Below, one piece after another: positions 1 to 9,543 of a stretch of 64,000 bases of DNA. Numbering within the stretch: position 1 is the first letter of the stretch; each line of letters starts with the position of its first letter. The stretch is from Gemmobacter nectariphilus (lineage in GTDB: Bacteria; Pseudomonadota; Alphaproteobacteria; Rhodobacterales; Rhodobacteraceae): the NCBI GenBank assembly GCA_020721445.1, contig DYMU01000002.1, positions 1 through 64,000 of the forward strand, in the 5' to 3' direction. The notes under the pieces were generated by a model. The model was not told the origin of the DNA and did no database searches. It saw only the letters and a program-made list of their open reading frames with translations. The translations under genes and the position numbers were made by a program.

Positions 1-1
1 C

Positions 2-451
2 AAGGAGAGGTGGGACCGGATCAGGGAGCTCACCGCCGCTGAGGAGAGCCTTGCAACCGTTGACCGCCTGTTCGCCAACCCGATTGCCGTGCTTGCGCGC
101 TCCGGGCTGGGGTCTGCGGAGCGCGTCAACTTCGCCGCCGCTGTCGCCACCTCCGGCCCGGCTGAACTGCGCCAGTTCGCAGAGTTCGCCGTTGCCACCA
201 AGAACCGCGTCTTGGGGGCTGCCCTGCTCAGCCGCTTGGACGCCCTTCCCGCGAAGAACCGCCCGTTCTCGGCACACGAGCTTGCGGACAAGTTGTGCGG
301 GGAGGAGACGCGGGCTGTCCGTGCCAGCATCGACGCTGTCCGCAACGCCACCAACCGCGCCCTCACCGCAAACCGCGCCTTCACTGCGGGCAAGAGCAAC
401 CCGCTGGACACCATCAAGATGGGCCTGCGCGCCCGCAAACAGGAGGACTGA
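2..451 (+). CDS. Hypothetical protein of the mobile element, 5' end outside the window
   Basis: An open frame runs in from the left edge and stops at TGA 449-451, so only the C-terminal ~149 residues are visible. The fragment is hydrophilic, rich in Ala, Arg and Leu, probably alpha-helical, and ends in charged residues (ARKQED). I recognise no domain. Its neighbours (short unknown proteins, a ParA with its own DNA-binding domain, and an attachment site at 6.4-6.6 kb) suggest a gene of an integrated element, but the role is unknown. An AGGAGG sequence sits at 441-446 inside its last codons and appears to serve the next frame. Confidence 0.6.
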   Translation, partial: KERWDRIRELTAAEESLATVDRLFANPIAVLARSGLGSAERVNFAAAVATSGPAELRQFAEFAVATKNRVLGAALLSRLDALPAKNRPFSAHELADKLCGEETRAVRASIDAVRNATNRALTANRAFTAGKSNPLDTIKMGLRARKQED

Positions 452-454
452 AAA

Positions 455-730
455 ATTCCGCTTTACCGCATCTCCCGCTCCGCCAACCCCACCCTTGCCG
501 AGACGCTTGGCACCTCCTCCGGCATTCGCGGCGCTCTGGTTTCGGCCGCATCGCCCGCCGCCGCGATTGTCGCCGCCAACGCACTCGCCTTTGCCCGGGG
601 CTTCAACGATGTGTTCACGCCCGCCGCGTGGGTCATCACCGACATTGCCACCACGCCCGGGGGCTTGCACACCGACACGCTGGTGGATGGCGATTTCAGC
701 ACCGTGCGCGGCATCTGGCCGGGGAAGTGA
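455..730 (+). CDS. Small hypothetical protein with a probable ATT (non-canonical) start codon
   Basis: Between two well-formed genes is a coding-like frame of about 91 codons, beginning IPLYRISRS and ending GIWPGK at TGA 728-730. It is in the same frame as the upstream gene, directly behind that gene's TGA (449-451). No ATG, GTG or TTG opens it. The only well-placed candidate is ATT at 455, eight bases after a strong AGGAGG (441-446). The protein is Ala/Thr-rich with no domain I recognise. Alternatives are readthrough of the TGA, a start at the internal GTG near 611, or a sequencing error. Coding status is inferred from residue composition and its fit between neighbours. Confidence 0.5.
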   Translation: MPLYRISRSANPTLAETLGTSSGIRGALVSAASPAAAIVAANALAFARGFNDVFTPAAWVITDIATTPGGLHTDTLVDGDFSTVRGIWPGK

Positions 731-732
731 CG

Positions 733-1089
733 ATGACCGACCAAGAAATCTTGGACGGCTACGATGTGCTGTTTCCGGCCAACCTCAGGCTTGCCCATGA
801 AGCCGTCCTCACCGCCGCCGCAGAGCTCAGCGATGATGGCTGGCCGACCCCCGCCATGATCGTGAAGTGGGCCAAGTGCTACGATGTTCCGGTGGTGGAG
901 CTCGCAGGCCTGTGCGGAATACTGGTTTCCAAGGTCGGGCGGCGCACCGTGTTCAGTGACTCCCGGCGGCACCCCTACCTCGTGAACCGGCTGAACGCGG
1001 CCCAGTGGAGCCGCCGGGCGCTGGTCTGCTACGGCTTCTACAACGTGGCGGTGGAGATGACGATGCGCGACCGCGCGGCCATCCACTGA
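733..1089 (+). CDS. Hypothetical protein, 118 aa
   Basis: ATG 733 follows the previous stop by two bases, which suggests one transcript and coupled translation. The 118-residue product starts MTDQEILDGYD and is a mixed, soluble-looking protein with several Trp and Cys residues in its middle (WAKCYDV, LAGLCG) and a basic stretch (GRRTVFSDSRRHPY). I recognise no family. It lies in the mobile-element segment between two unknown frames and the glycosyltransferase. Its function cannot be assigned from sequence. Confidence 0.6.
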   Translation: MTDQEILDGYDVLFPANLRLAHEAVLTAAAELSDDGWPTPAMIVKWAKCYDVPVVELAGLCGILVSKVGRRTVFSDSRRHPYLVNRLNAAQWSRRALVCYGFYNVAVEMTMRDRAAIH

Positions 1090-1214
1090 CGCCCACCACA
1101 GGGCGCTTCAAGTGCTTGCTGTGGAACGAAAGTTTCCGCTGTCGCGGCGGTGACGACCCCTAGACGTGCTCCAAGTCGCCCCGCTAGACCGGGGATAGAA
1201 ATGGAGAACAAAAG

Positions 1215-1316
1215 ATGAACACACACCGCTGCCCGAAGGCCACCCGCGCCGCATTCGCCGCCCTGCTGCTGGGCATCATCGCGTCCTGGACCGCCATCGT
1301 CTGGGCGCTCGCATGA
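1215..1316 (+). CDS. 33-residue single-helix membrane peptide
   Basis: A short frame starts at ATG 1215, with a GGAGA-like ribosome site at 1203-1207. It encodes a basic N-terminus (MNTHRCPKATR) followed by one hydrophobic helix (AAFAALLLGIIASWTAIVWALA). Its TGA overlaps the next start as ATGA (1313-1316), so it is probably translationally coupled to the glycosyltransferase gene. Size and topology fit a small membrane partner or regulator of that enzyme, but this is inference. Such a short frame could also be a leader peptide. Confidence 0.5.
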   Translation: MNTHRCPKATRAAFAALLLGIIASWTAIVWALA

Positions 1317-2665
1317 ACGTCATCCCCTTCGCCCGCCACCGGGCCACGGCTTCCGCCGCAACCGCTGCATGGGCAGCGTCCAGCGTCCCGGCTCACCTCT
1401 CCGCCCGGGGGCTAAAGGTCCCGCTTCTGGCCGCGCTGTGCCTCCCGCTGGCGCTCGGCATGGCCGCGCTCGTGCCTTGGGCGTCCTACATCCTAGCCCC
1501 GGCCTTCGCCCTTGCGGCGGCGCTCCGGCTGGCCGCTCTTGTGGGCCTGATCCTGCCCGAGGTCCCCGAACCGCCGCCCCTGCCAGACGCGCACCTGCCA
1601 GCCCTGACCGTGCTGTTGCCGCTCTACCGGGAGGCGGCTGTGCTGCCCGACCTCGTGGCCGCAATGGGGGCCTTGGACTACCCCCGCCACCTCATGCAGA
1701 TCATCGTCTTGTTGGAGGAGGGTGACGCAGAGACGCGCGGCGCGGCGGGCGTCCACGTCCCCCGGGGCCAAGGGTGGCAGGTCATCGTCGTGCCCGTTGG
1801 CAAGCCCCAGACCAAGCCACGGGCGGTCAACGTGGGGCTGGCAGCGGCGCGCGGTGAGGTGGTGGTGATCTATGACGGGGAGGACAGGCCGGAGGTTGAC
1901 CAAGCCCGCCGGGCCGTCGCGGCGCTCATGGCTGACCCCGGCCTTGCAGTGGTGCAATGTGCACTGGCCTGCGACCACGGGGGGCCTTGGTTCACTGTTG
2001 GCTGGCGCACCGAATACGCTGTGTTGTTTGGGGCCATCCTGCCCGTCCTGTCCCGCCTGGGACTGCCGTTCCTGTTCGGCGGGACCTCGCAATTTCTCCG
2101 GCGTGACGCCCTGATGGAGGCCGGGGCCTACTGCGCGCACAACACGACCGAAGATGCTGACCTTGCTGTCCGCATGGCCCGCCTGGGCCACCGCTCCGCC
2201 TTCATCCCGTCAGCCACCTTTGAAGAGGCCCCCGTGACGCTCCGGGCCTTCCTGCACCAGCGCCGCAGATGGATCGCAGGGCACATCATCACCGCCTTGG
2301 TCCACCTTCGCAATCCGGTTGAGACATGGCGGCAGGTCGGCCCGGCGGGGTCCCTGGCCCTGCTGGCGCAGCTTCCTGTGGCGACCTTGTCAACCGCTGC
2401 CCACCCGCTGGGTTTCGCACTCTTTACCTCTGGAGAGCTCCACGGCGCGCTGGGGGCTGTGCTAGCGCTGGGCTACGGGGCAGCCGTCGCGCTTGTCTGG
2501 GCCACGTCGCGGAGCCTCTGGGCGGTGTTCATGCTGCCAGCCTACTGGTGCCTCCACGTCGCTGCGCTGGTGATGGCCCTGCATGACGTGGTGCTCTGTC
2601 CGCAACACTGGTTCAAGACCTCCCATGGCATTGCGGTGCGGCCTGCGATGAAACAGGCCTGTTGA
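1313..2665 (+). CDS. Membrane-bound family 2 glycosyltransferase
   Basis: This 450-residue protein has the layout of processive or membrane GT2 enzymes. Hydrophobic segments at about 35-82 are followed by a GT-A catalytic domain. The domain contains a nucleotide-sugar-binding acidic motif YDGEDRPE (187-194), TEDADL (279-284) carrying the likely catalytic Asp, and QRRRW (316-320), the Q-x-x-R-W acceptor motif. Several more membrane helices follow at about 335-440. Such enzymes polymerise or transfer sugars at the cytoplasmic face. It overlaps the 33-residue membrane peptide by ATGA. Its position in a mobile element raises serotype conversion or envelope modification (receptor masking) as a role; the substrate is unknown. 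Confidence 0.75.
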   Translation: MNVIPFARHRATASAATAAWAASSVPAHLSARGLKVPLLAALCLPLALGMAALVPWASYILAPAFALAAALRLAALVGLILPEVPEPPPLPDAHLPALTVLLPLYREAAVLPDLVAAMGALDYPRHLMQIIVLLEEGDAETRGAAGVHVPRGQGWQVIVVPVGKPQTKPRAVNVGLAAARGEVVVIYDGEDRPEVDQARRAVAALMADPGLAVVQCALACDHGGPWFTVGWRTEYAVLFGAILPVLSRLGLPFLFGGTSQFLRRDALMEAGAYCAHNTTEDADLAVRMARLGHRSAFIPSATFEEAPVTLRAFLHQRRRWIAGHIITALVHLRNPVETWRQVGPAGSLALLAQLPVATLSTAAHPLGFALFTSGELHGALGAVLALGYGAAVALVWATSRSLWAVFMLPAYWCLHVAALVMALHDVVLCPQHWFKTSHGIAVRPAMKQAC

Positions 2666-2689
2666 CAGCCCGACTGTGAACGATGTAAA
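2662..2689 (+). promoter_or_regulatory. Candidate promoter for the element's parA-like gene
   Basis: TTGACA at 2662-2667 is a perfect -35 hexamer. TGTAAA at 2684-2689 is a plausible -10 after a 16-base spacer. The pair lies between the glycosyltransferase stop and the GTG of the ATPase gene, and the -10 falls inside the palindrome at 2674-2714. Repression by a protein bound there is therefore expected. Confidence 0.45.
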
Positions 2690-2714
2690 CACACAGTGTG
2701 TATAGCGTTCACAG
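2674..2714. promoter_or_regulatory. Nested palindromic operator or partition site
   Basis: Perfect 9-bp arms CTGTGAACG (2674-2682) and CGTTCACAG (2706-2714) enclose a second inverted repeat, ACACAC-A-GTGTGT (2689-2701), centred one base away. The array overlaps the likely -10 element and ends 12 bases before the GTG start of the HTH-ParA gene. This is what an autoregulatory operator or a centromere-like site of a plasmid or phage partition cassette would look like. Which of the two it is cannot be told from sequence. Confidence 0.55.
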
Positions 2715-2726
2715 GGAATCAATCGG

Positions 2727-3758
2727 GTGGATGATGAGCTTGTCGGCATCAACGAGATAGCCGAGATGGCCGGAGCCTCCAAACAGGTGGTCGCCAACTG
2801 GCGAGCACGGATTGCCAACTTCCCAAAGCCCATTGCCGTGCTGGCATCGGGCCCAGTGTTCCGCCGATCACAGGTGCGATCATGGCTGCGAAAGAGGAAG
2901 GTTCCAATGGCTCACGTTTTCTCAACAATCAACCTCAAGGGCGGGGTTGGAAAGACGACCACCACAGTCGCGGTGGCCGAAACCCTGTCATCTGAGTTCG
3001 GCAAGAAGGTCCTTGTCATCGACCTTGACCCGCAGACCAACGCCACCACGATGTTGATCGGGGAGGACAAGTGGCGGACCCTGAACGACAGCGGGCGCAC
3101 CCTTGCCCGCCTGTTCAAGGACGCGCTTGAGCCTGACAACAAGCAGTTCAACTTTGACGCTGCGCTCCAGAAGAACGTGTCTGATGTGAGCGGGACGCAC
3201 AAGCTAGACCTCCTCCCGTCCAGCCTTGACCTGATCGACGTTCAGGACCGTCTGGCAGCCGCGCCCAGTGGCAAATACTTCTCCAACAACCCGATTGAAT
3301 TGCTGTGGAAGGCCGTGAAGTCGCGGCTTGATGACTATGACGTTGTGATCGTGGACTGCCCGCCCAACTTGGGCATCATCACGCTGAACGGGCTGCGCAT
3401 CTCCGACGGCTACATCATCCCGACCATCCCGGACATCCTGTCCACCTACGGCATCCCGCAGATCGTGACCCGGGTGCGCGACTTCGCCGATGAGATCGGT
3501 GAGAGCATCGAGCCCTTGGGCATCGTCGTGACCAAGTTCCAAGCCAACTCATCGGTCCATGCAAACGTGATGCGCAACCTCCGCGCTGGAAAAGACGCCC
3601 CCGTGTTTGCCACTGTCATACCGCAGGCAAACAACATCGCGGGCGCGGCTGAACACCAGTCCTACGCGCGCACCCTCAAGCAGAAGTATGGATATGGAGG
3701 GTTGGCTGAATCCTACCGGAGCCTTGCCCAAGAGATCATCACAAAGCTGGAGGCCTGA
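2727..3758 (+). CDS. ParA/Soj-type partition ATPase with N-terminal helix-turn-helix
   Basis: GTG 2727 opens a 343-residue protein; no better start is visible. Residues ~8-28 form a helix-turn-helix of the excisionase/MerR-like type (INEIAEMAGASKQVVANW), extended to about 57. A deviant Walker A, KGGVGKTT, lies at 71-78. DLDPQTNATT and a later DCPPNLG complete the Walker-type ATPase core. Such proteins position or segregate plasmids, phage-plasmids or integrative elements, and those with an N-terminal DNA-binding domain usually repress their own promoter, consistent with the palindrome at 2674-2714. The next gene starts three bases after the stop and may be the partner. It is distinct from the chromosomal parA at 48.8 kb. 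Confidence 0.85.
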   Translation: MDDELVGINEIAEMAGASKQVVANWRARIANFPKPIAVLASGPVFRRSQVRSWLRKRKVPMAHVFSTINLKGGVGKTTTTVAVAETLSSEFGKKVLVIDLDPQTNATTMLIGEDKWRTLNDSGRTLARLFKDALEPDNKQFNFDAALQKNVSDVSGTHKLDLLPSSLDLIDVQDRLAAAPSGKYFSNNPIELLWKAVKSRLDDYDVVIVDCPPNLGIITLNGLRISDGYIIPTIPDILSTYGIPQIVTRVRDFADEIGESIEPLGIVVTKFQANSSVHANVMRNLRAGKDAPVFATVIPQANNIAGAAEHQSYARTLKQKYGYGGLAESYRSLAQEIITKLEA

Positions 3759-3761
3759 GCG

Positions 3762-4148
3762 ATGAAGCTGCGCACCAAGTTGCTGGACCTCGCCAAGGCG
3801 GTAGCCGATGCAGCCGACCGGGACCCGGAGCTTGCCAGCCGCCTTTCTGAAATCTTCGGTGCAGTGCCCGCCGTCCCCAAGCGGCCTGAACCTGTCCCGG
3901 GGCGGGCCAAGAACCGGAGGCCAGCGGCGGTGCTGGACCCGGTGGTGGTCGTGGGCGAAGGGGAGGACGCGCTGCGCAGCCAACTGTCAGCCCTCTCACT
4001 GGACCAGTTGCGCGACGTAGTGGCTGAGTATGGGATGGACCAAGGCAAGCTGGTGATGAAGTGGAAGGACCCGGTGCGCATCATTGACCGCATCGTTGAG
4101 ATTGCGGTTGCCCGTGCGCAGAAGGGACACGCTTTCCGGTCTGAGTGA
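3762..4148 (+). CDS. Small protein in operon with the ParA-like ATPase; possible partition partner
   Basis: ATG 3762 begins three bases after the ATPase stop, so the two are almost certainly cotranscribed. The 128-residue product has a charged helical N-terminus, a Pro/Arg-rich linker (about 36-57) and a C-terminal domain with LSALSLDQLRDVVAEYGM. I do not recognise a ParB, ParR or known centromere-binding family. Position and size fit the small DNA-binding partner of ParA-type cassettes, but this is inference from context only. Confidence 0.6.
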   Translation: MKLRTKLLDLAKAVADAADRDPELASRLSEIFGAVPAVPKRPEPVPGRAKNRRPAAVLDPVVVVGEGEDALRSQLSALSLDQLRDVVAEYGMDQGKLVMKWKDPVRIIDRIVEIAVARAQKGHAFRSE

Positions 4149-4163
4149 ACATCAGCCGTTACG

Positions 4164-5246
4164 TCAGAGGTCATCGCTCCAAGCCTCGTCAAGCGACTTC
4201 GGCGGCGGGAGCTGGCCGTAGAACGCCTGGCGGTGCAGATGGATGTTGATGCGCGCTGAATACATCTTGGGCATTGAGTCGATGGCGAAAGCCTGCCCAT
4301 CAGCAGCTCCCTCTATCAACTGCTCGCCCCAGATGCCCAAGCCGCCGCTCCACTTCCCCGACTTCTCAATGACCCTCTTGGCAGCGGCCTGGAACGACAC
4401 CGGGCTGTCGTTGTCGCGGGCGATGACCCAGCCTTTGTCGGTGGGGTAGTCAATCCTGTTCTTGGGTGCGCTCGCATGTCCGTAGGCCCTGGGCTTGGTG
4501 GAGCCCCAGTCGGCATAGATCATCCTGGGATGGTTTGTCGCCAGCTTGATCTGGGCCAGTAGGTCCCGGTTGGAGAAGCCCAGTTCCTCAATCCCGTCGA
4601 ACACCGTGAAGTCGCTGGGGAATGTGGTGCAGCAGACCGCAATCGGGATTTCAGGCGGTGTCGCTGAGAAGAAGCTCTTGATGTAGCCCGCAGCGACGGG
4701 GGCAACCTCAAGGGCGCTTTGGACAAGCCCGAAGTCGAACACCACCGTGTAGTCCACCGCGCCCTCAGCAGCGAGCTCAGCGACCAGGCTTGGCAACCAA
4801 GTCGGGATGCCTGACCCGGCTACCGCCATGTCCATCCTCAGGCAGAAGGATCGGTCATTCTCACGCGCCCACGCGACCTGTCCTCTGGCGCTCTCAAGCG
4901 TGGATCCATTCATCAGCAGGCACGGGTTGGCATTGGGGTAGGGGAGGAGGAGCGCCTGCCATACGCCCAGGTCAGCGGGGCGCTTGACCAGCTCTGCCCA
5001 GGCGTCCTTCGCCTCGTTGCCGTTGTCGCCTGGGTGGTAGTAGGTGTCCACGTCGATGAAGTAGGGCCTGCCCGGGTAGGCATTCTCAAACTTGTCGATG
5101 GCCTTTGAGAGTGGGTAGGTGGCCATCCAGGGTGCCAGCAGCACGAGCGGCGTGAGCCGGTCCTTTGTGCTGCCGGGAAGCTCCTTCAACCCGCTCAGTT
5201 CGGCGCGGCGGATGCACAGCGTCACCAGGTAATCTGTCACGTCCAT
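4164..5246 (-). CDS. Protein beta family protein (possible defence gene)
   Basis: The frame stays open upstream, but ATG 5246 is the natural start because it lies 16 bases after the protease gene's stop with GAGGGGG before it; the product is 360 aa. Features I associate with the 'beta family protein' group (from memory, Pfam Beta_protein) are the N-terminal YLVTLCIRRAELSGLKEL, then RLTPLVLL, a PYFIDVD strand, and a VVFDFGLV strand in the middle. The biochemical role is not established; members often lie beside ImmA/IrrE-like proteases or in prophages and islands. Here it is last in a three-gene operon with such a protease and a membrane protein, close to an attachment site. Toxin, sensor or effector roles are all possible. 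Confidence 0.6.
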   Translation of the reverse strand: MDVTDYLVTLCIRRAELSGLKELPGSTKDRLTPLVLLAPWMATYPLSKAIDKFENAYPGRPYFIDVDTYYHPGDNGNEAKDAWAELVKRPADLGVWQALLLPYPNANPCLLMNGSTLESARGQVAWARENDRSFCLRMDMAVAGSGIPTWLPSLVAELAAEGAVDYTVVFDFGLVQSALEVAPVAAGYIKSFFSATPPEIPIAVCCTTFPSDFTVFDGIEELGFSNRDLLAQIKLATNHPRMIYADWGSTKPRAYGHASAPKNRIDYPTDKGWVIARDNDSPVSFQAAAKRVIEKSGKWSGGLGIWGEQLIEGAADGQAFAIDSMPKMYSARINIHLHRQAFYGQLPPPKSLDEAWSDDL

Positions 5247-5262
5247 GTGCCGCGCCGCCCCC

Positions 5263-5814
5263 TCACACCATCTGGAGTTTGATTTCCATCGCCGCCGTTG
5301 AGACGCCGAAGCGCCGGGCGAGGTCCTCAATTACCTCGCTGGTCATCGGCCCAGTGTAGTCAGCCGTGGCCTGCGCCAGCAGATGTGACGGAATCACAAG
5401 GTCAGACGCAAGCCGGTTCGCCTCATACTCAATCTGGATTGGCTGGTTGGGCGCGCGGAGGAGGACGTTTTCAGACCAGCCGCCTTCTGCCACGATCCGC
5501 TCCCGGTGCAGCAGGTAGTGGGCCAGTTCGTGGGCAAGCGTGAAGCGCTGCCGGTGCTTCGCCTCGTGGCGGTTGATGCGGATGACGAATTCACCATCCT
5601 CCTGGGCGATCTGCCCAGAGGTCCCGCGCGGCAGGGTGGACAGCAGGACCTTGACCCCAAGCCGCTCAGCTATCGCACCCAGCTTGACCGGATGCTCAGC
5701 AAGGAAGCCGTCAATCTCTTGCCGCACCGCCGGGGCGAGGGTCGTGTATTCACGGGATGGCGACTTCACCTCCCAGCCGCTTGAAGCTGCCATCTTCGTC
5801 ATGCTCCCGTCCAT
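5263..5814 (-). CDS. ImmA/IrrE-family metallo-endopeptidase
   Basis: A start at ATG 5814 is preferred over the in-frame ATG 5838 because AGGAGGGA lies just before it; the product is 183 aa. Residues 92-103 read TLAHELAHYLLH, the zinc HExxH motif (H95, E96, H99). A downstream EYEANRLASDLVIP supplies the third-ligand Glu at about 131, as in ImmA and IrrE. ImmA cleaves the ImmR repressor to switch on ICEBs1, and IrrE/PprI cleaves DdrO after DNA damage. No XRE-type repressor gene is adjacent here. The neighbours are a membrane protein upstream and a beta-family protein downstream, so the substrate may be one of those or a distant repressor. Confidence 0.8.
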   Translation of the reverse strand: MDGSMTKMAASSGWEVKSPSREYTTLAPAVRQEIDGFLAEHPVKLGAIAERLGVKVLLSTLPRGTSGQIAQEDGEFVIRINRHEAKHRQRFTLAHELAHYLLHRERIVAEGGWSENVLLRAPNQPIQIEYEANRLASDLVIPSHLLAQATADYTGPMTSEVIEDLARRFGVSTAAMEIKLQMV

Positions 5815-5834
5815 TGTTGCTCCCTCCTGTTTTG

Positions 5835-6272
5835 TCACGCCTGGTCGCCTGATTCGGGCTCTGGCTCGCCGCTCTGCAACCGCATCGCCACCCGCTCAAA
5901 CACCTCGTCTAGCTCGCCCTTCCGGGCCATCTCGCTCAAGATCGTGTGGCCCAGCCCGGCGGCCATCGTCGCGTTGATCTGCACCGCCGCCGCACCCTTC
6001 GCCTCAGTGGCGGCCTCTGTCTTGATCTCACGCAGCGTCTTGAAGGCCACTAGACCGATGACCAGCGCACCGACAGTGACTGCAAGGCCGATGGCCCCAA
6101 GAAAGATCGTCACCACCGTGAGCAGCAAGTCCACATAGTCAGCCCTGGTCGGATCAACGTGCGCAACCTGGCCGCTACCGGGCAATCCCCACCCGAACCA
6201 GAACACCATGGCAGCCACGGCGGCGAACCCACCGACAATGGAACCCATGAGCGCGGCGCTCACCTTACCCAT
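5835..6272 (-). CDS. Two-helix membrane protein, first gene of the ImmA/beta operon
   Basis: A strong AAGGAGG ribosome site precedes ATG 6272. The 145-residue protein has a hydrophobic segment at about 8-30, a periplasmic loop with several Asp residues (about 35-48), and a second long hydrophobic segment at about 49-78. The C-terminal cytoplasmic tail of about 65 residues is helical and acidic and ends PEPESGDQA. I recognise no family. Twenty bases separate it from the protease gene, with AGGAGGGA in the gap, so the three minus-strand genes form one operon. A membrane-anchored sensor or a membrane-acting effector would both fit. Confidence 0.65.
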   Translation of the reverse strand: MGKVSAALMGSIVGGFAAVAAMVFWFGWGLPGSGQVAHVDPTRADYVDLLLTVVTIFLGAIGLAVTVGALVIGLVAFKTLREIKTEAATEAKGAAAVQINATMAAGLGHTILSEMARKGELDEVFERVAMRLQSGEPEPESGDQA

Positions 6273-6414
6273 GTGACCTCCTTGTGGGAACGAACAGAGA
6301 ACAAATCAAGCCTGATTGTAAACCATCTTGACAAAGGCGTCGATAGGGAATCCACGATGCAACAGGACGCGACTCAGCCAGATGGGCGGTCAACTTGTTG
6401 ATTCTGTGAGGAAA

Positions 6415-6490
6415 TGGTGCCCCAGGAGGGACTCGAACCCCCGACCTCCTCATTACGAATGAGGCGCACTACCAGCTGTGCTACTGGGGC
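6415..6490 (-). tRNA. tRNA-Thr (anticodon CGU), complete, with encoded CCA
   Basis: Read on the minus strand from 6490, the 76 nt fold as a cloverleaf. The acceptor GCCCCAG pairs with CTGGGGC; the D-arm is present; the anticodon stem CCTCA/TGAGG encloses loop TTCGTAA with anticodon CGT; the T-loop is GTTCGAGTC; discriminator A and an encoded CCA follow. The acceptor differs from that of the truncated tRNA at 6578-6616 (GCCGCTG), although both carry the same anticodon loop. It lies on the mobile-element side of that truncation and probably replaces its function. Confidence 0.92.
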
Positions 6491-6504
6491 AAGCCCGTCT
6501 TTTT

Positions 6505-6526
6505 CCGTTTTAGTGCCCCGTTTTAG
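6505..6526. repeat. Direct repeat CCGTTTTAG x2 beside the attachment region
   Basis: CCGTTTTAG occurs at 6505-6513 and again at 6518-6526, 13 bases apart start to start. They lie between the complete and the truncated tRNA-Thr. Short direct repeats spaced about one helical turn apart next to an attachment core are typical of integrase arm-binding or excisionase sites. The assignment is by position only. An AGAGCAC also occurs at 6525-6531 and 6570-6576. Confidence 0.4.
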
Positions 6527-6577
6527 AGCACATCTTTCTGTTTCCCGTCAACCACCTACGCCAGCCGTGAGAGCACT

Positions 6578-6616
6578 ATTACGAATGACGTGCTCTACCA
6601 GCTGAGCTACAGCGGC
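6578..6616 (-). pseudogene. Truncated tRNA-Thr(CGU): 5' 39 nt only, at the element junction
   Basis: On the minus strand from 6616 the sequence reads as a tRNA: acceptor GCCGCTG, TA, a D-arm GCTC/GAGC around AGCTGGTA, A26, the 5' anticodon stem CGTCA, loop TTCGTAA and T39. The match to a tRNA then ends abruptly. The expected TGACG stem, T-arm and CAGCGGC acceptor are not found in the 87 bases before the complete tRNA. The 11-base block TCATTCGTAAT is shared with the complete copy (6452-6462 and 6578-6588, complemented). I read this as one end of a site-specific integration whose crossover lies in the anticodon loop. Confidence 0.75.
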
Positions 6617-6652
6617 ACTTTCTGGTGGGTGTGTCCTATTGCGCCACACCAT

Positions 6653-6693
6653 CCGCGTCAAGCCCGCGTCGGCGGGCTTGACGCGGTGTTTTT
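6653..6693 (+). terminator. Strong 15-bp hairpin with T-tract reading on the + strand
   Basis: CCGCGTCAAGCCCGC (6653-6667) and its exact complement (6672-6686) flank a 4-base loop and are followed by TGTTTTT. As a rho-independent terminator it works in the + direction, yet all genes and tRNAs for about 2.5 kb to its left lie on the minus strand. It also sits 12 bases past the 3' end of hemY, where the stem alone may end or protect the hemY transcript. Confidence 0.6.
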
Positions 6694-6704
6694 CTGTCAA
6701 CCCC

Positions 6705-8138
6705 CTAGGCTGACTTCGGCTCGCTGGTGTCCATCACCTCGGCCGTGGCCTTGATCGGGGCGGGCTGGCCGACGATCAGGGGCATCAGTTCGGTCCCGGT
6801 CGCGGAAGGCCCCGTCATTTCGGGGGCCTCGCGCCAACTGAGCGTATCAAACCCACCGCAATTGTCGCAAATCGGGTGCCATTGGGCATGCACGGCCTGG
6901 CACTTGTCACAGCACCATTGCGGGCCGCGCGGCGCTGTCAACGCCCGGGTCAACCAGCCGCGAACCACGGCATCGTCCTCGCCTTCGCCACGCGCCACGG
7001 CGGCCATGATCGCCAGTGTGCGCTGCGTCGGGTGCTTGGTGACCAGATCGCCAAGATTGCGCTTGGCGGCAGGAAAATCCTCGGCGGCGACGTGCAGTTC
7101 GGCTTGCAGCAGGCGGGTTTGTTCGTCTTCGGGCTTGATCGCGGTCAGGACCTTGAACCGTTTCAGTCGGGCGGTGGCCGTTTCTTCGGGCTCAATCTCG
7201 GCGAAAGCGGCGGCCAGGTCGGGGTGCGGCTGCATGGACCAAGCCTTTTTCAGAACGGCAGTTGCGCCCTTCTTGTCGCCTTTCGCCACCAGACTGCGCG
7301 CGGCCATGGCGGCGGCGGGAATCAGATCAGGCGACAGCCGGTTGGCCTCGATCGCGGCCTCGCGCGCCTCGATGCTGGCTGTATCGTCAATCACGGTCTT
7401 CGCCTCTTGCAGTGCCAGAACCGCATCGCGGCGGCGATAGACATCGCGTGGCAACTCGCCGGCTTTCAGCTTGGCACCAAGGGTCTGACGGGCACCCTTC
7501 CAATCAGAATGCTCTGCTTGCAGTTTCAGCAAGATATCTTGGGTTTCCACATGGCGCGGCTTCATGGCAAAGGCTTTTTCCGCCAATTTCAAGGCGGTAT
7601 CGGTATCACCTTCGGCAAGCTTTTGCTTCATCAGGCCCCGAACACCGACGAAACGGGTCTTTTCATCGCCAAGCAGCTTTTTATACGCATCGCTGGCGCG
7701 CTTGCTGTCGCCCACCGCCTCGGCTGATTGCGCCATCAGCAGCGTGGTCAGTTCCGGTGCGGCCAGATAGCGTTCGGCCCGCTGCGCCCGCGCCAAGGCC
7801 ATCCGGCCATCGCCCGAAGCCAGCGCCAGCAGGCCCTCGGTCAGGGCCTGATAACCTTTGCGCTCGCGGTTGCGATCAAAATACCGCGAAATTGCGGTTT
7901 CATCGCCATTCAGAAAGCGCAGAACCGCGACCAGCAGGCCCACCAGTTTCAGCAAGATCCAGAACGCGCCCAGGATCAGCAGCACCAGGATGACAGCCTG
8001 AAACGGGCCAAGGTTCAATTCCCAGCCCGCAACGGCCACGCGCACCCCGCCATCGGTTTCAAGCAACACGCTTGCCCCATAGGTCAGGCCACCAACGATG
8101 GCCACGAACAGAACGACTTTCAGCAAAGACCAAAGCAT
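6705..8138 (-). CDS. hemY: HemY-family TPR membrane protein with C-terminal zinc ribbon
   Basis: The start at ATG 8138 gives 477 residues. Residues ~1-70 hold two hydrophobic helices (LLKVVLFVAIVGGL and AVILVLLILGAFWILLKLV), the HemY N-terminal domain. A TPR-like helical region runs to about 400. Near the C-terminus a rubredoxin-like CDKC...CDNC pair precedes GGFDTLSW. This is the proteobacterial HemY encoded behind hemD, an inner-membrane scaffold linked to haem synthesis, not the Gram-positive oxidase of the same name. It follows mic60 and hemD on the minus strand, the usual alphaproteobacterial order. Confidence 0.85.
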   Translation of the reverse strand: MLWSLLKVVLFVAIVGGLTYGASVLLETDGGVRVAVAGWELNLGPFQAVILVLLILGAFWILLKLVGLLVAVLRFLNGDETAISRYFDRNRERKGYQALTEGLLALASGDGRMALARAQRAERYLAAPELTTLLMAQSAEAVGDSKRASDAYKKLLGDEKTRFVGVRGLMKQKLAEGDTDTALKLAEKAFAMKPRHVETQDILLKLQAEHSDWKGARQTLGAKLKAGELPRDVYRRRDAVLALQEAKTVIDDTASIEAREAAIEANRLSPDLIPAAAMAARSLVAKGDKKGATAVLKKAWSMQPHPDLAAAFAEIEPEETATARLKRFKVLTAIKPEDEQTRLLQAELHVAAEDFPAAKRNLGDLVTKHPTQRTLAIMAAVARGEGEDDAVVRGWLTRALTAPRGPQWCCDKCQAVHAQWHPICDNCGGFDTLSWREAPEMTGPSATGTELMPLIVGQPAPIKATAEVMDTSEPKSA

Positions 8139-8148
8139 CAGCGCACCC

Positions 8149-9543
8149 TCACCCTTCGACAGCAGCGGCAAGTGCCGCGATGGCACTGGCTGCATCCAGC
8201 CTGTGTTGCGCCATGGCAGACCATTCGGCCATGGCGGCCTTTCCTGCATCGGGCAAGGCCTGCAATTCGGTCAGCGCGGTTTGCAGATCGCCCGCTTTCA
8301 CGGCCGCTTCGGCGCGCGACAACACGGCATCCGGACCATCGCCTTCTTGCGGAGTCAACGACCGCGCGCCGGTAGCGCTGCGCAGGAAAGACGCGGCGCG
8401 GTCGGTCCAGTTGTCGCCGATGTTTGACCGGATCGACGTATCAAGCGCCGCCCGCGCCGCCACCGGGAACCCGGCGATCAAGACCGCCGATGATGGCACG
8501 CCGGTTTCGGCGGACTGGGTCAGAATGTCGGGCACATCAAAGCCCGCCAGATCGGGCAAGGCATCGGCAAACGGGCTGCCGCTTTCCAGCGCGGCCGTCA
8601 GGCGACCGACAGATGCCTTGGCCAAAGCGATGCGTGCGGTTTCTTCGGCTTCGGCCTTCATGGCGGCGGCCGAGGCCTCGGCTTCGGCGATCTGGGCCTT
8701 GGCTTCGTCAACCATGGCCAGAACCCCGGCGCGTGCGTCGCCCTCTTCCAGCTTCAGCACATCCATTTCGGCGCGCAGGGCCTTTACGGTGGCGACCAGA
8801 TCAGAAGGAACACCATCCGCCGAAATGATCGGACCCGCCGCTTCCAGCGTTGCAAGCCGGGCTTCCAGCGCGGCAATCGCATCCGTCACCGGCGCAAGAT
8901 CGGGCTCTGCCGCCACGGGCCGCGACTCAAGCGCTGCGACGCGGTCTGCCAGTGTCGCCTCTTCCAGCGCACCGATTCGCGTTGTCAGCGCCTGCATCGC
9001 CGCCTGTTCTTCGGCAGATGGGGCGGGGGCAGGCAGCAGACCGGGGATCGGGTTGAAGGTGGCCAAGGCATAACCGGCTGCCGCCGCAACAACACCGCCA
9101 AGGGCCATTCCGAAAAATCCGCCGCCCGATTTTTTCGGTGTGGGCGGCGGGGCCGAGGGGGCCGGCGGCGGGGTGGGTTCAGGCCGGGTATCTTCAATGA
9201 TCTCGGCGTCAGTCACATCCGACCGATCTTGCGACTGCGGGCTGTCATCGCCCAAAGCTTCAAGGATTTCATCCGCTTCAACGGTTTCGATAAACTCATC
9301 TGCGCGCTTGCGATCGGCGTCCTCGGCAGCCTGTTCTGCCCAGCTGGCCACCTCGGCATCAAGGATTTTGGACTCATCATCCAGCAAGGCCGGTGTGACC
9401 GTCTCGTCGCCCGGCACCGCCGAGGCCGTGTCGGCAGCGTCAGACGGCGTGTCGGAACTGGGGCTGGCTTCGACCGATTCAGGACCGGTCATCTGGCCAT
9501 CATCGGTTTCGGCCTCTTGGTTTGGGCGGACTGGTGTGGCCAT
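8149..9543 (-). CDS. mic60: Mitofilin/Mic60 homologue of the hemD-hemY cluster
   Basis: ATG 9543, with AGGA nine bases upstream, is preferred over the in-frame ATG 9552. The product has 464 aa. An acidic Glu/Asp/Ser-rich cytoplasmic N-terminus (about 1-130) leads to one transmembrane helix (FFGMALGGVVAAAAGYALATF). A long Ala/Glu-rich coiled coil follows, then a C-terminal mitofilin-like domain. Alphaproteobacterial Mic60 lies beside hemY and shapes intracytoplasmic membranes, as mitochondrial Mic60 shapes cristae. Assignment rests on topology, coiled coil and synteny; sequence identity in this family is low. Confidence 0.75.
   Translation of the reverse strand: MATPVRPNQEAETDDGQMTGPESVEASPSSDTPSDAADTASAVPGDETVTPALLDDESKILDAEVASWAEQAAEDADRKRADEFIETVEADEILEALGDDSPQSQDRSDVTDAEIIEDTRPEPTPPPAPSAPPPTPKKSGGGFFGMALGGVVAAAAGYALATFNPIPGLLPAPAPSAEEQAAMQALTTRIGALEEATLADRVAALESRPVAAEPDLAPVTDAIAALEARLATLEAAGPIISADGVPSDLVATVKALRAEMDVLKLEEGDARAGVLAMVDEAKAQIAEAEASAAAMKAEAEETARIALAKASVGRLTAALESGSPFADALPDLAGFDVPDILTQSAETGVPSSAVLIAGFPVAARAALDTSIRSNIGDNWTDRAASFLRSATGARSLTPQEGDGPDAVLSRAEAAVKAGDLQTALTELQALPDAGKAAMAEWSAMAQHRLDAASAIAALAAAVEG

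Follow-up and report, generated by a model that had tools for sequence, protein, structure and literature searches.

An integrase island in Gemmobacter nectariphilus that probably cuts the host tRNA-Thr(CGU) gene and supplies a whole foreign replacement

In tRNA-dependent lysogeny, demonstrated experimentally for the actinobacteriophages Fionnbharth and Gaia and for Gordonia phages, the prophage provides the tRNA whose gene it has interrupted (Guerrero-Bustamante and Hatfull, 2024; PMC10865867). That report asked how prevalent the strategy is outside the actinobacteriophages and how it relates to ordinary restoration of the tRNA gene (PMC10865867). In Lo5R7ANS-like prophages of Sinorhizobium meliloti, the host tRNA-Leu(UAG) is described as inactivated, its place being taken by an island tRNA that is more like those of other Alphaproteobacteria (PMC11476347), and prophages that do not use tRNA replacement have also been reported (PMC12429752).

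The window analyzed here is a stretch of 64,000 nucleotides from Gemmobacter nectariphilus (Rhodobacteraceae) at the start of contig C45. Very probably, an island of about 14 kb with a tyrosine integrase has cut the host tRNA-Thr(CGU) gene in this genome and supplies a whole foreign replacement. As far as sequence can demonstrate it, this reading is borne by the sequences at the two junctions and at the empty site, by the integrase and the repeats, by the finding of a single complete tRNA gene and by the recurrence of the layout. The features are collected in Table 1.

Table 1. Features of the island and of its junctions with the host (window coordinates unless another contig is named).
Feature	Position	Strand	Basis or remark
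Right part of the integrated element	1..6577	.	55-bp contig-end overlap and synteny with related elements
Rest of the element, with integrase and attL	G000:C12:1-7520 (7,520 bp)		displaced 3' half next to it at C12:7521-7566
Partial element gene, appears to run on into C12	2..448	+	matches related elements beside the C12 gene end
Family 2 glycosyltransferase, element cargo	1313..2665	+	Pfam Glyco_trans_2_3, E 4.6e-21
ParA-like partition ATPase	2727..3758	+	Pfam AAA_31, E 6.8e-38; phrog_164, E 7.8e-54
'Beta protein' PF14350, candidate anti-phage cargo	4164..5330	-	Pfam, E 3.8e-45; PADLOC 'beta', E 8.5e-29
IrrE/ImmA-like metallopeptidase (Peptidase_M78)	5263..5838	-	Pfam, E 3.5e-20
Complete carried replacement tRNA-Thr(CGU), GCCCCAG acceptor type	6415..6490	-	ARAGORN (sole tRNA in the window)
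attP P' arm (87 bp, from core to carried tRNA)	6491..6577	-	three WARRACGG repeats
Putative integrase arm-type site 3, AAAGACGG	6495..6502	-	WARRACGG motif
Putative integrase arm-type site 2, TAAAACGG	6505..6512	-	WARRACGG motif
Putative integrase arm-type site 1, TAAAACGG	6518..6525	-	WARRACGG motif
9-bp common core, ATTCGTAAT	6578-6586	-	comparison of the two junctions
Truncated host tRNA-Thr(CGU) gene, 5' half (39 nt), attR junction	6578..6616	-	sequence and comparison with G006
Host hemY, first right-flank gene, outside the element	6705..8249	-	Pfam HemY_N, E 9.5e-23; contiguous with the intact tRNA in G006

The host gene is broken one base past its 7-base anticodon loop. The first-pass annotation of the window had described a complete tRNA-Thr(CGU) lying 87 bp from a 39-nt fragment of another; ARAGORN and direct measurement of the gap bear out both the pair and its spacing. 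Its statement that the two tRNAs share only TCATTCGTAAT was too strong, since they are identical at 33 of 39 positions over the 5' half and at 63 of 76 overall. A pattern search of the whole genome located the missing 3' half of the host gene at the end of another contig, C12; the 3'-half pattern occurs in exactly two places in this genome, the carried tRNA and C12:7521. The displaced half begins ATTCGTAAT and ends CAGCGGCACCA, and the host tRNA rebuilt from the two halves matches the intact tRNA-Thr(CGU) of the close relative G006 at 76 of 76 positions. Only 9 bp are common to both junctions, namely the anticodon loop with one base on each side. After the host 5' half comes AGTGCTCTCACGG, and ARAGORN finds no tRNA formed by that half together with the adjoining element sequence.

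Among 15 genus relatives searched, the 3'-half pattern occurs once in each of 13 and is absent from G008 (82% complete) and G011 (87% complete); ARAGORN predicts a single complete tRNA-Thr(CGT) at each of those 13 loci. The empty site is seen in G006, where the right flank (89% over 1,509 bp) runs uninterrupted into the whole tRNA. The left flank is rearranged, with nagA reversed relative to the tRNA between G006 and the window's genome (L003 7787-8938 vs L010); this is a host rearrangement. A strong terminator-like stem of 15 pairs lies on the plus strand at 6653-6686, between hemY and the cut host tRNA.

These results also answer to what the first-pass annotation had predicted from the window: a matching 3' half at the far end of the element, running from the anticodon loop to CAGCGGC-A-CCA, was found on C12; an integrase gene was found beside it; and an empty site with one intact tRNA was found in a close relative. 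Relatives holding a complete tRNA together with a fragment, which would have spoken against insertion, were not encountered with a pattern blind to a lone 5' fragment (one 3'-half place in 13 of the 15, none in two). The suggestion that the target is destroyed and replaced by a whole second tRNA is right at the level of sequence.

The other end of the element is absent from the window's contig because the window starts at the contig end. C12 and C45 begin with the same 55 bases in opposite orientation, without a mismatch, and the order of proteins in related elements continues across the join; from this overlap and synteny the element is placed at about 14.04 kb (7,520 + 6,577 - 55 = 14,042 bp). 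The integrase is a tyrosine integrase with Arm-DNA-bind_3 and Phage_integrase domains, which in its longest ORF reading lies 124 bp from the displaced 3' half. It had no match in phages, two distant integrases as matches in plasmids, and eight distant, mostly partial matches in viral contigs. No Pfam family was found for the partial gene at the contig end. Ten element proteins were scanned against PHROGs; there were no capsid, tail or portal families among them and one weak match to a terminase small subunit, so that by these proteins the element does not classify as a temperate phage. The combination of an integrase and primase backbone without structural genes, among the proteins scanned, is that of a P4-like element. 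Neither a relaxase nor conjugation genes were seen among the element proteins scanned, a subset of its ORFs.

The lambda-type attP consists of a P arm, a core and a P' arm. The attP reconstructed for the window element has this layout, with the carried tRNA directly after the P' arm. Three more WARRACGG repeats are present in the P arm, which extends over 148 bp up to the core, on the side of the integrase (C12, 7373-7520). The motif, defined after the repeats had been noticed, thus occurs six times in the 235 bp of attP and never in the 13,770 bp of the element's interior (0.04 expected from its frequency in the rest of the window and C12). A relative that restores its tRNA, G115, has the same repeats, three in P' and two in P.

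The proposed course of events is that attP, having only the anticodon-loop core in common with the host tRNA-Thr(CGU), would direct integration that cuts the gene at the loop. The element has no sequence that completes the host 5' half, and the host 3' half lies displaced at its far end, beside the integrase. The whole foreign tRNA-Thr(CGU) just beyond the P' arm, in the same direction as the host 5' half, would let the host keep this tRNA, and the carried copy is presumably both expressed and needed. ACG might also be read through wobble by other threonine tRNAs, in which case the replacement may be of help to the host without being vital.

By two pattern searches the carried tRNA is the only complete tRNA-Thr(CGU) in the window's genome. 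The pattern for the complete gene gave exactly one match in each of 22 genomes tested, 14 of which have the replacement layout; in those 14 the single match is the carried copy. This count rests on one pattern, which a tRNA-Thr(CGU) gene of another form would escape. The carried tRNA is identical, at 76 of 76 positions, to the sole tRNA-Thr(CGU) found in G126, G375 and G400, which belong to other genera. No cut half was present in the 17-19 kb read around the gene in these three genomes, so by origin the carried tRNA looks like a chromosomal gene of other bacteria. Its 3' flank agrees with that of G126 at 16 of 18 bases, a match equaled by none of 5,000 shuffles. This hint at a donor is only suggestive, because among 44 flanks compared an unrelated one scored 13 against 14.

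Integrases matching that of the window at E<=1e-20 were found in 16 of 394 family genomes, its own included. Each of the five nearest integrase relatives has a displaced tRNA 3' half beside the integrase, derived from tRNA-Thr(UGU) in G115, tRNA-Asn in G095, G235 and G111, and tRNA-Arg(ACG) in G037 (isotypes read by eye; the complete tRNAs agree for four). Four of the five (G115, G095, G235 and G111) carry a complete tRNA at the other end, as ordinary restoring islands do; no such tRNA turned up in the sequence read for the G037 element. The integrase genes of G235 and G037 are broken (a stop was counted for G235). Backbone genes are common to the window element and the four restoring elements, and G037 yields an integrase match only.

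The same anticodon-loop cut is seen again in other genera. Patterns found a tRNA-Thr(CGU) 5' half cut after the loop in 9 of the 394 family genomes and, in 11, displaced 3' halves at a total of 13 places. The window's genome is one of 14 among the 394 that have the replacement layout; this count is a lower bound, as the patterns require ATTCGTAAT, and G143, G351, G057, G280 and G113 were added by inspection. G380, which has a displaced half and a complete tRNA without a cut 5' half or P' arm, was left out of the count. A reading of the G057 5' half as decayed was dropped when the same GCCTCAA type was met as a whole carried tRNA elsewhere.

The other 13 layout genomes represent a second integrase family. 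Its integrase was found in 10 of them (not for G085, G258 and G137) and is 26-30% identical to that of the window. In the six elements in which both are on one contig (G107, G211, G154, G143, G351 and G127), it lies about 3-15 kb from the displaced half. Repeats of the TAGTAGGG type occur in the P' arm and also on the P side at all 11 junctions examined, which include G380 and two each from G085 and G351, with the same two distances in nine of the 11. The core is separated from the carried tRNA by 86-97 bp. The cargo of three second-family elements (G107, G143 and G113) includes type I restriction-modification, a PtuA-like ATPase and helicases, and those of G107 and G113 have DUF5906 or Prim-Pol primases.

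In an integrase tree the window element clusters with those that restore, and the second family stands separate, with branch support of 70/40 and long branches flagged. The tree has 16 rows, three of them unlabeled, one of which, G113, has the replacement layout; the broken integrases L029 and L031, and the same genes in L059 and L061, were omitted. The P' arms of the window element and of the second family are similar in length, 87 bp as against 86-97 bp, and differ by eye. Since they differ in this way, and since the window's backbone matches restoring elements, two origins of the layout are favored over one, although the tree is compatible with one origin too.

Several features of individual second-family loci deserve record. 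The P-arm repeats stay beside the displaced half although the integrase is about 3-15 kb off (L120-L125, L128, L133 and L135). A conserved CCA-N5-TT block stands between the core and the arm repeats of the P' arms; judged by its sequence, it could be a candidate IHF-type bend site. On contig C7 of G085 (L126/L127; 9548, 19968 and 29606) elements are stacked, with the replacing element inside a tRNA whose 3' half is CCGCGGC and an outer displaced half CAGCGGC; by reading, the CCGCGGC half has one mispaired base against the host acceptor and could come from an earlier restoring element. In G380 (C16, 1387376 and 1418314; L129/L130) a second-family P arm and displaced half accompany the complete tRNA that no cut half or P' arm precedes, and there is no TAGTAGG repeat in the 20 kb of L129; the locus may be an island that became locked when cut half and carried copy recombined. 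Second-family integrases have a tRNA-Thr(GGU) gene as a near neighbor in L137 (G280:C15, about 50.6-53.7 kb) and L138 (G028:C1), and in G280 the integrase is outside the cut 5' half. Two displaced tRNA-Thr(CGU) 3' halves occur on two contigs of G351 (L133 and L134), perhaps as two elements in one genome.

The distribution of the second-family layout was extended by scanning a 19-bp motif of its P' arm in genome_contigs, which holds one genome for each of 84,980 species. The motif was found in 72 stretches, in 65 of which a complete tRNA follows 7-19 bp on; in all 65 it is tRNA-Thr(CGT). The remaining seven comprise three in unrelated organisms (L164, L175 and L210), which are probably chance matches, two at a contig edge (L192 and L197) and two in which the carried tRNA is cut short (L177 and L190). 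The cut in L177, from Primorskyibacter aestuariivivens, falls exactly at the loop, at ATTCGTAAT, which would fit use of the carried tRNA as an attB by another incoming element. The core TTCGTAA stands at -68 in 58 of the 65 loci and at -69 in one, and in the other six it is mutated (four) or outside the sequence examined (two). The carriers are mostly Rhodobacteraceae or Rhodobacterales, with one Pelagibacterium (Hyphomicrobiales). Twelve of the scan loci are among those already met in the 394-genome family sample, so that the two sets are not independent. Neither the second-family arm motif nor the 5' part of the carried tRNA had a match in viral_contigs.

A whole tRNA would be favored over a 3' half if a foreign 3' half often fails to pair with the host acceptor stem. 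The acceptor of the host 5' half differs from that of the carried copy in 32 of 59 readable loci, a few of these differences being due to indels that shift the reading; 11 of the host halves are altered. Among the 48 unaltered halves, 20 would mispair with the carried 3' half, 11 of them at one position, four at two and five at three. In the window, a hybrid of the host 5' half and the carried 3' half would have two acceptor mismatches. The carried tRNAs themselves pair fully in the acceptor, G-U allowed, in 63 of 65 cases, and two are mispaired. With the whole gene carried, there would therefore be no need to match the host acceptor. Against this argument, the carried 3' half would be compatible with 28 of the 48 unaltered host halves in any case.

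Two accounts of how the carried copy is expressed compete within the same replacement. It is found downstream of the cut 5' half and codirectional with it in the 14 layout genomes and at 59 of 65 scan loci, those with a readable core. Transcription from the host tRNA promoter would read through the cut half and the P' arm, and the product would then be trimmed like other tRNA precursors; the chances that the carried tRNA is transcribed in this way are about even. The other account, which falls just short of an even chance, has the carried tRNA driven by a promoter within the P' arm and not by the host tRNA promoter. TTGACG is present upstream of the cut half and also in the window's P' arm, where it speaks for a promoter of the arm's own, as does the report that the Fionnbharth phage tRNA has its own promoter by reporter assay (PMC10865867). 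Scores against a general promoter consensus, out of 12, were 6.86 vs 6.37 in shuffles for native genes, 6.55 vs 6.51 for cut halves and 6.52 vs 6.64 for carried copies; those upstream of the cut halves are close to shuffles, so the general consensus gives no support for a kept host promoter, a further point for a P'-arm promoter.

Other evidence weighs against a promoter in the P' arm. A scan of the window from 6300 to 6800 found no sigma-70-like site in that arm, nor upstream of the cut half. The promoter-like TGCTA precedes 9 of 34 native genes, 19 of 58 cut host halves and none of 58 carried copies, against 1.1, 1.7 and 1.5 expected from shuffles, the second-family P' arms being without it; these 58 arms are homologous, which makes the last count nearly one observation. 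The looser TGNTA precedes 11 native genes, 27 cut halves and four carried copies. The carried copy also adjoins the host half and is in line with it.

It is very unlikely that the carried tRNA mainly resists tRNA-cutting defenses of phage or host, or fits the codon use of the element, and does not serve to rescue the host. The islands examined do carry defense-type genes, and phage tRNAs have been proposed to counter tRNA-cutting defenses (PMC10865867). Against such a role, wherever the tRNA is complete, at 65 of 65 loci, the carried isotype is that of the cut gene (six of these loci have a cut half with an unreadable core), and the carried tRNA is the sole complete copy found in the 14 layout genomes tested. 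That the element is an ordinary restoring island, which completes the gene from a 3' half of its own while the second tRNA is a passenger, is extremely unlikely. Four of the five nearest relatives restore in this manner, G115 a tRNA-Thr(UGU) and G095, G235 and G111 a tRNA-Asn; in the window, the sequence following the host 5' half makes no tRNA with it and the junctions have no more than the 9-bp core in common, and this junction sequence refutes ordinary restoration. Almost no credence attaches to tandem host tRNA genes of which one decayed after duplication with no part played by an element, an idea invited by two related tRNA-Thr sequences 87 bp apart on the same strand, opposed by a break at the anticodon loop, by the displaced 3' half and integrase at the other end, by repeats like integrase arm sites between the two and by the one tRNA of relatives, and refuted by the single intact gene in G006 and the matching 3' half on C12.

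Replacement of the cut gene by the island's tRNA may have wider meaning. It is tentatively proposed, with a probability appreciably below even, that small defense-carrying islands follow a general strategy in which a promoterless tRNA cassette is placed at the outer edge of the P' arm (of the intasome), where integration puts it under the host tRNA promoter, and that this arose at least twice, in two integrase lineages. If so, the strategy would free an island from matching host acceptor stems and allow it to move between species, while the host's only tRNA-Thr(CGU) would be swapped for a foreign one and the host made dependent on the island. Replacement may have a simple explanation in the failure of 20 of 48 foreign half-pairings, as against self-pairing in 63 of 65 whole tRNAs. 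Mobile islands can evidently swap between genera a tRNA gene of which each of 22 tested genomes has one copy, and annotators may take a tRNA next to a fragment of one as a possible sign of an island boundary. The large natural set of islands, none of them a recognized phage and most from Rhodobacteraceae, with restoring relatives on the window element's backbone, makes testable both of the questions raised for the phages, prevalence and relation to ordinary restoration.

Searches of the open-licence literature gave no recognizable precedent for tRNA replacement among satellite-like islands, within Rhodobacteraceae, or with the carried tRNA docked next to the P' arm. The principle is already known from phages; what appears to be new, as not found in print, is its use by satellite-like, defense-carrying islands whose spare tRNA sits at the attP edge, collinear with the cut gene. 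Islander-type restoring islands have in common with the window element a tyrosine integrase, integration in a tRNA gene and a displaced fragment at the far end (PMC4383910); they differ in that the window element has no 3' half in its attP, and the gene is replaced, not restored. The likeness to P4-like satellites and defense islands is one of gene content and lies in the integrase, an HTH_17/excisionase-like protein, a DUF5906 or Prim-Pol primase and candidate defense cargo, with a weak terminase small-subunit match. The Lo5R7ANS-like elements, which also exchange a host tRNA for an island one, are prophages and involve another isotype (PMC11476347). Closest is tRNA-dependent lysogeny, with which the island shares a tyrosine integrase and an attB in a tRNA gene (here by homology and junctions), a short core that does not rebuild the tRNA (8-17 bp there, 9 bp here) and close relatives that do rebuild it (PMC10865867). 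The systems reported there are temperate phages of Actinobacteria that use tRNA-Lys, tRNA-Ile2 and tRNA-Leu, and the tRNA of Fionnbharth overlaps gene 37 and has a promoter of its own (PMC10865867). Here, in contrast, the carrier is an island of about 14 kb with no structural genes among the proteins scanned, the gene is tRNA-Thr(CGU), and the spare tRNA stands at the edge of attP, in line with the gene that was cut.
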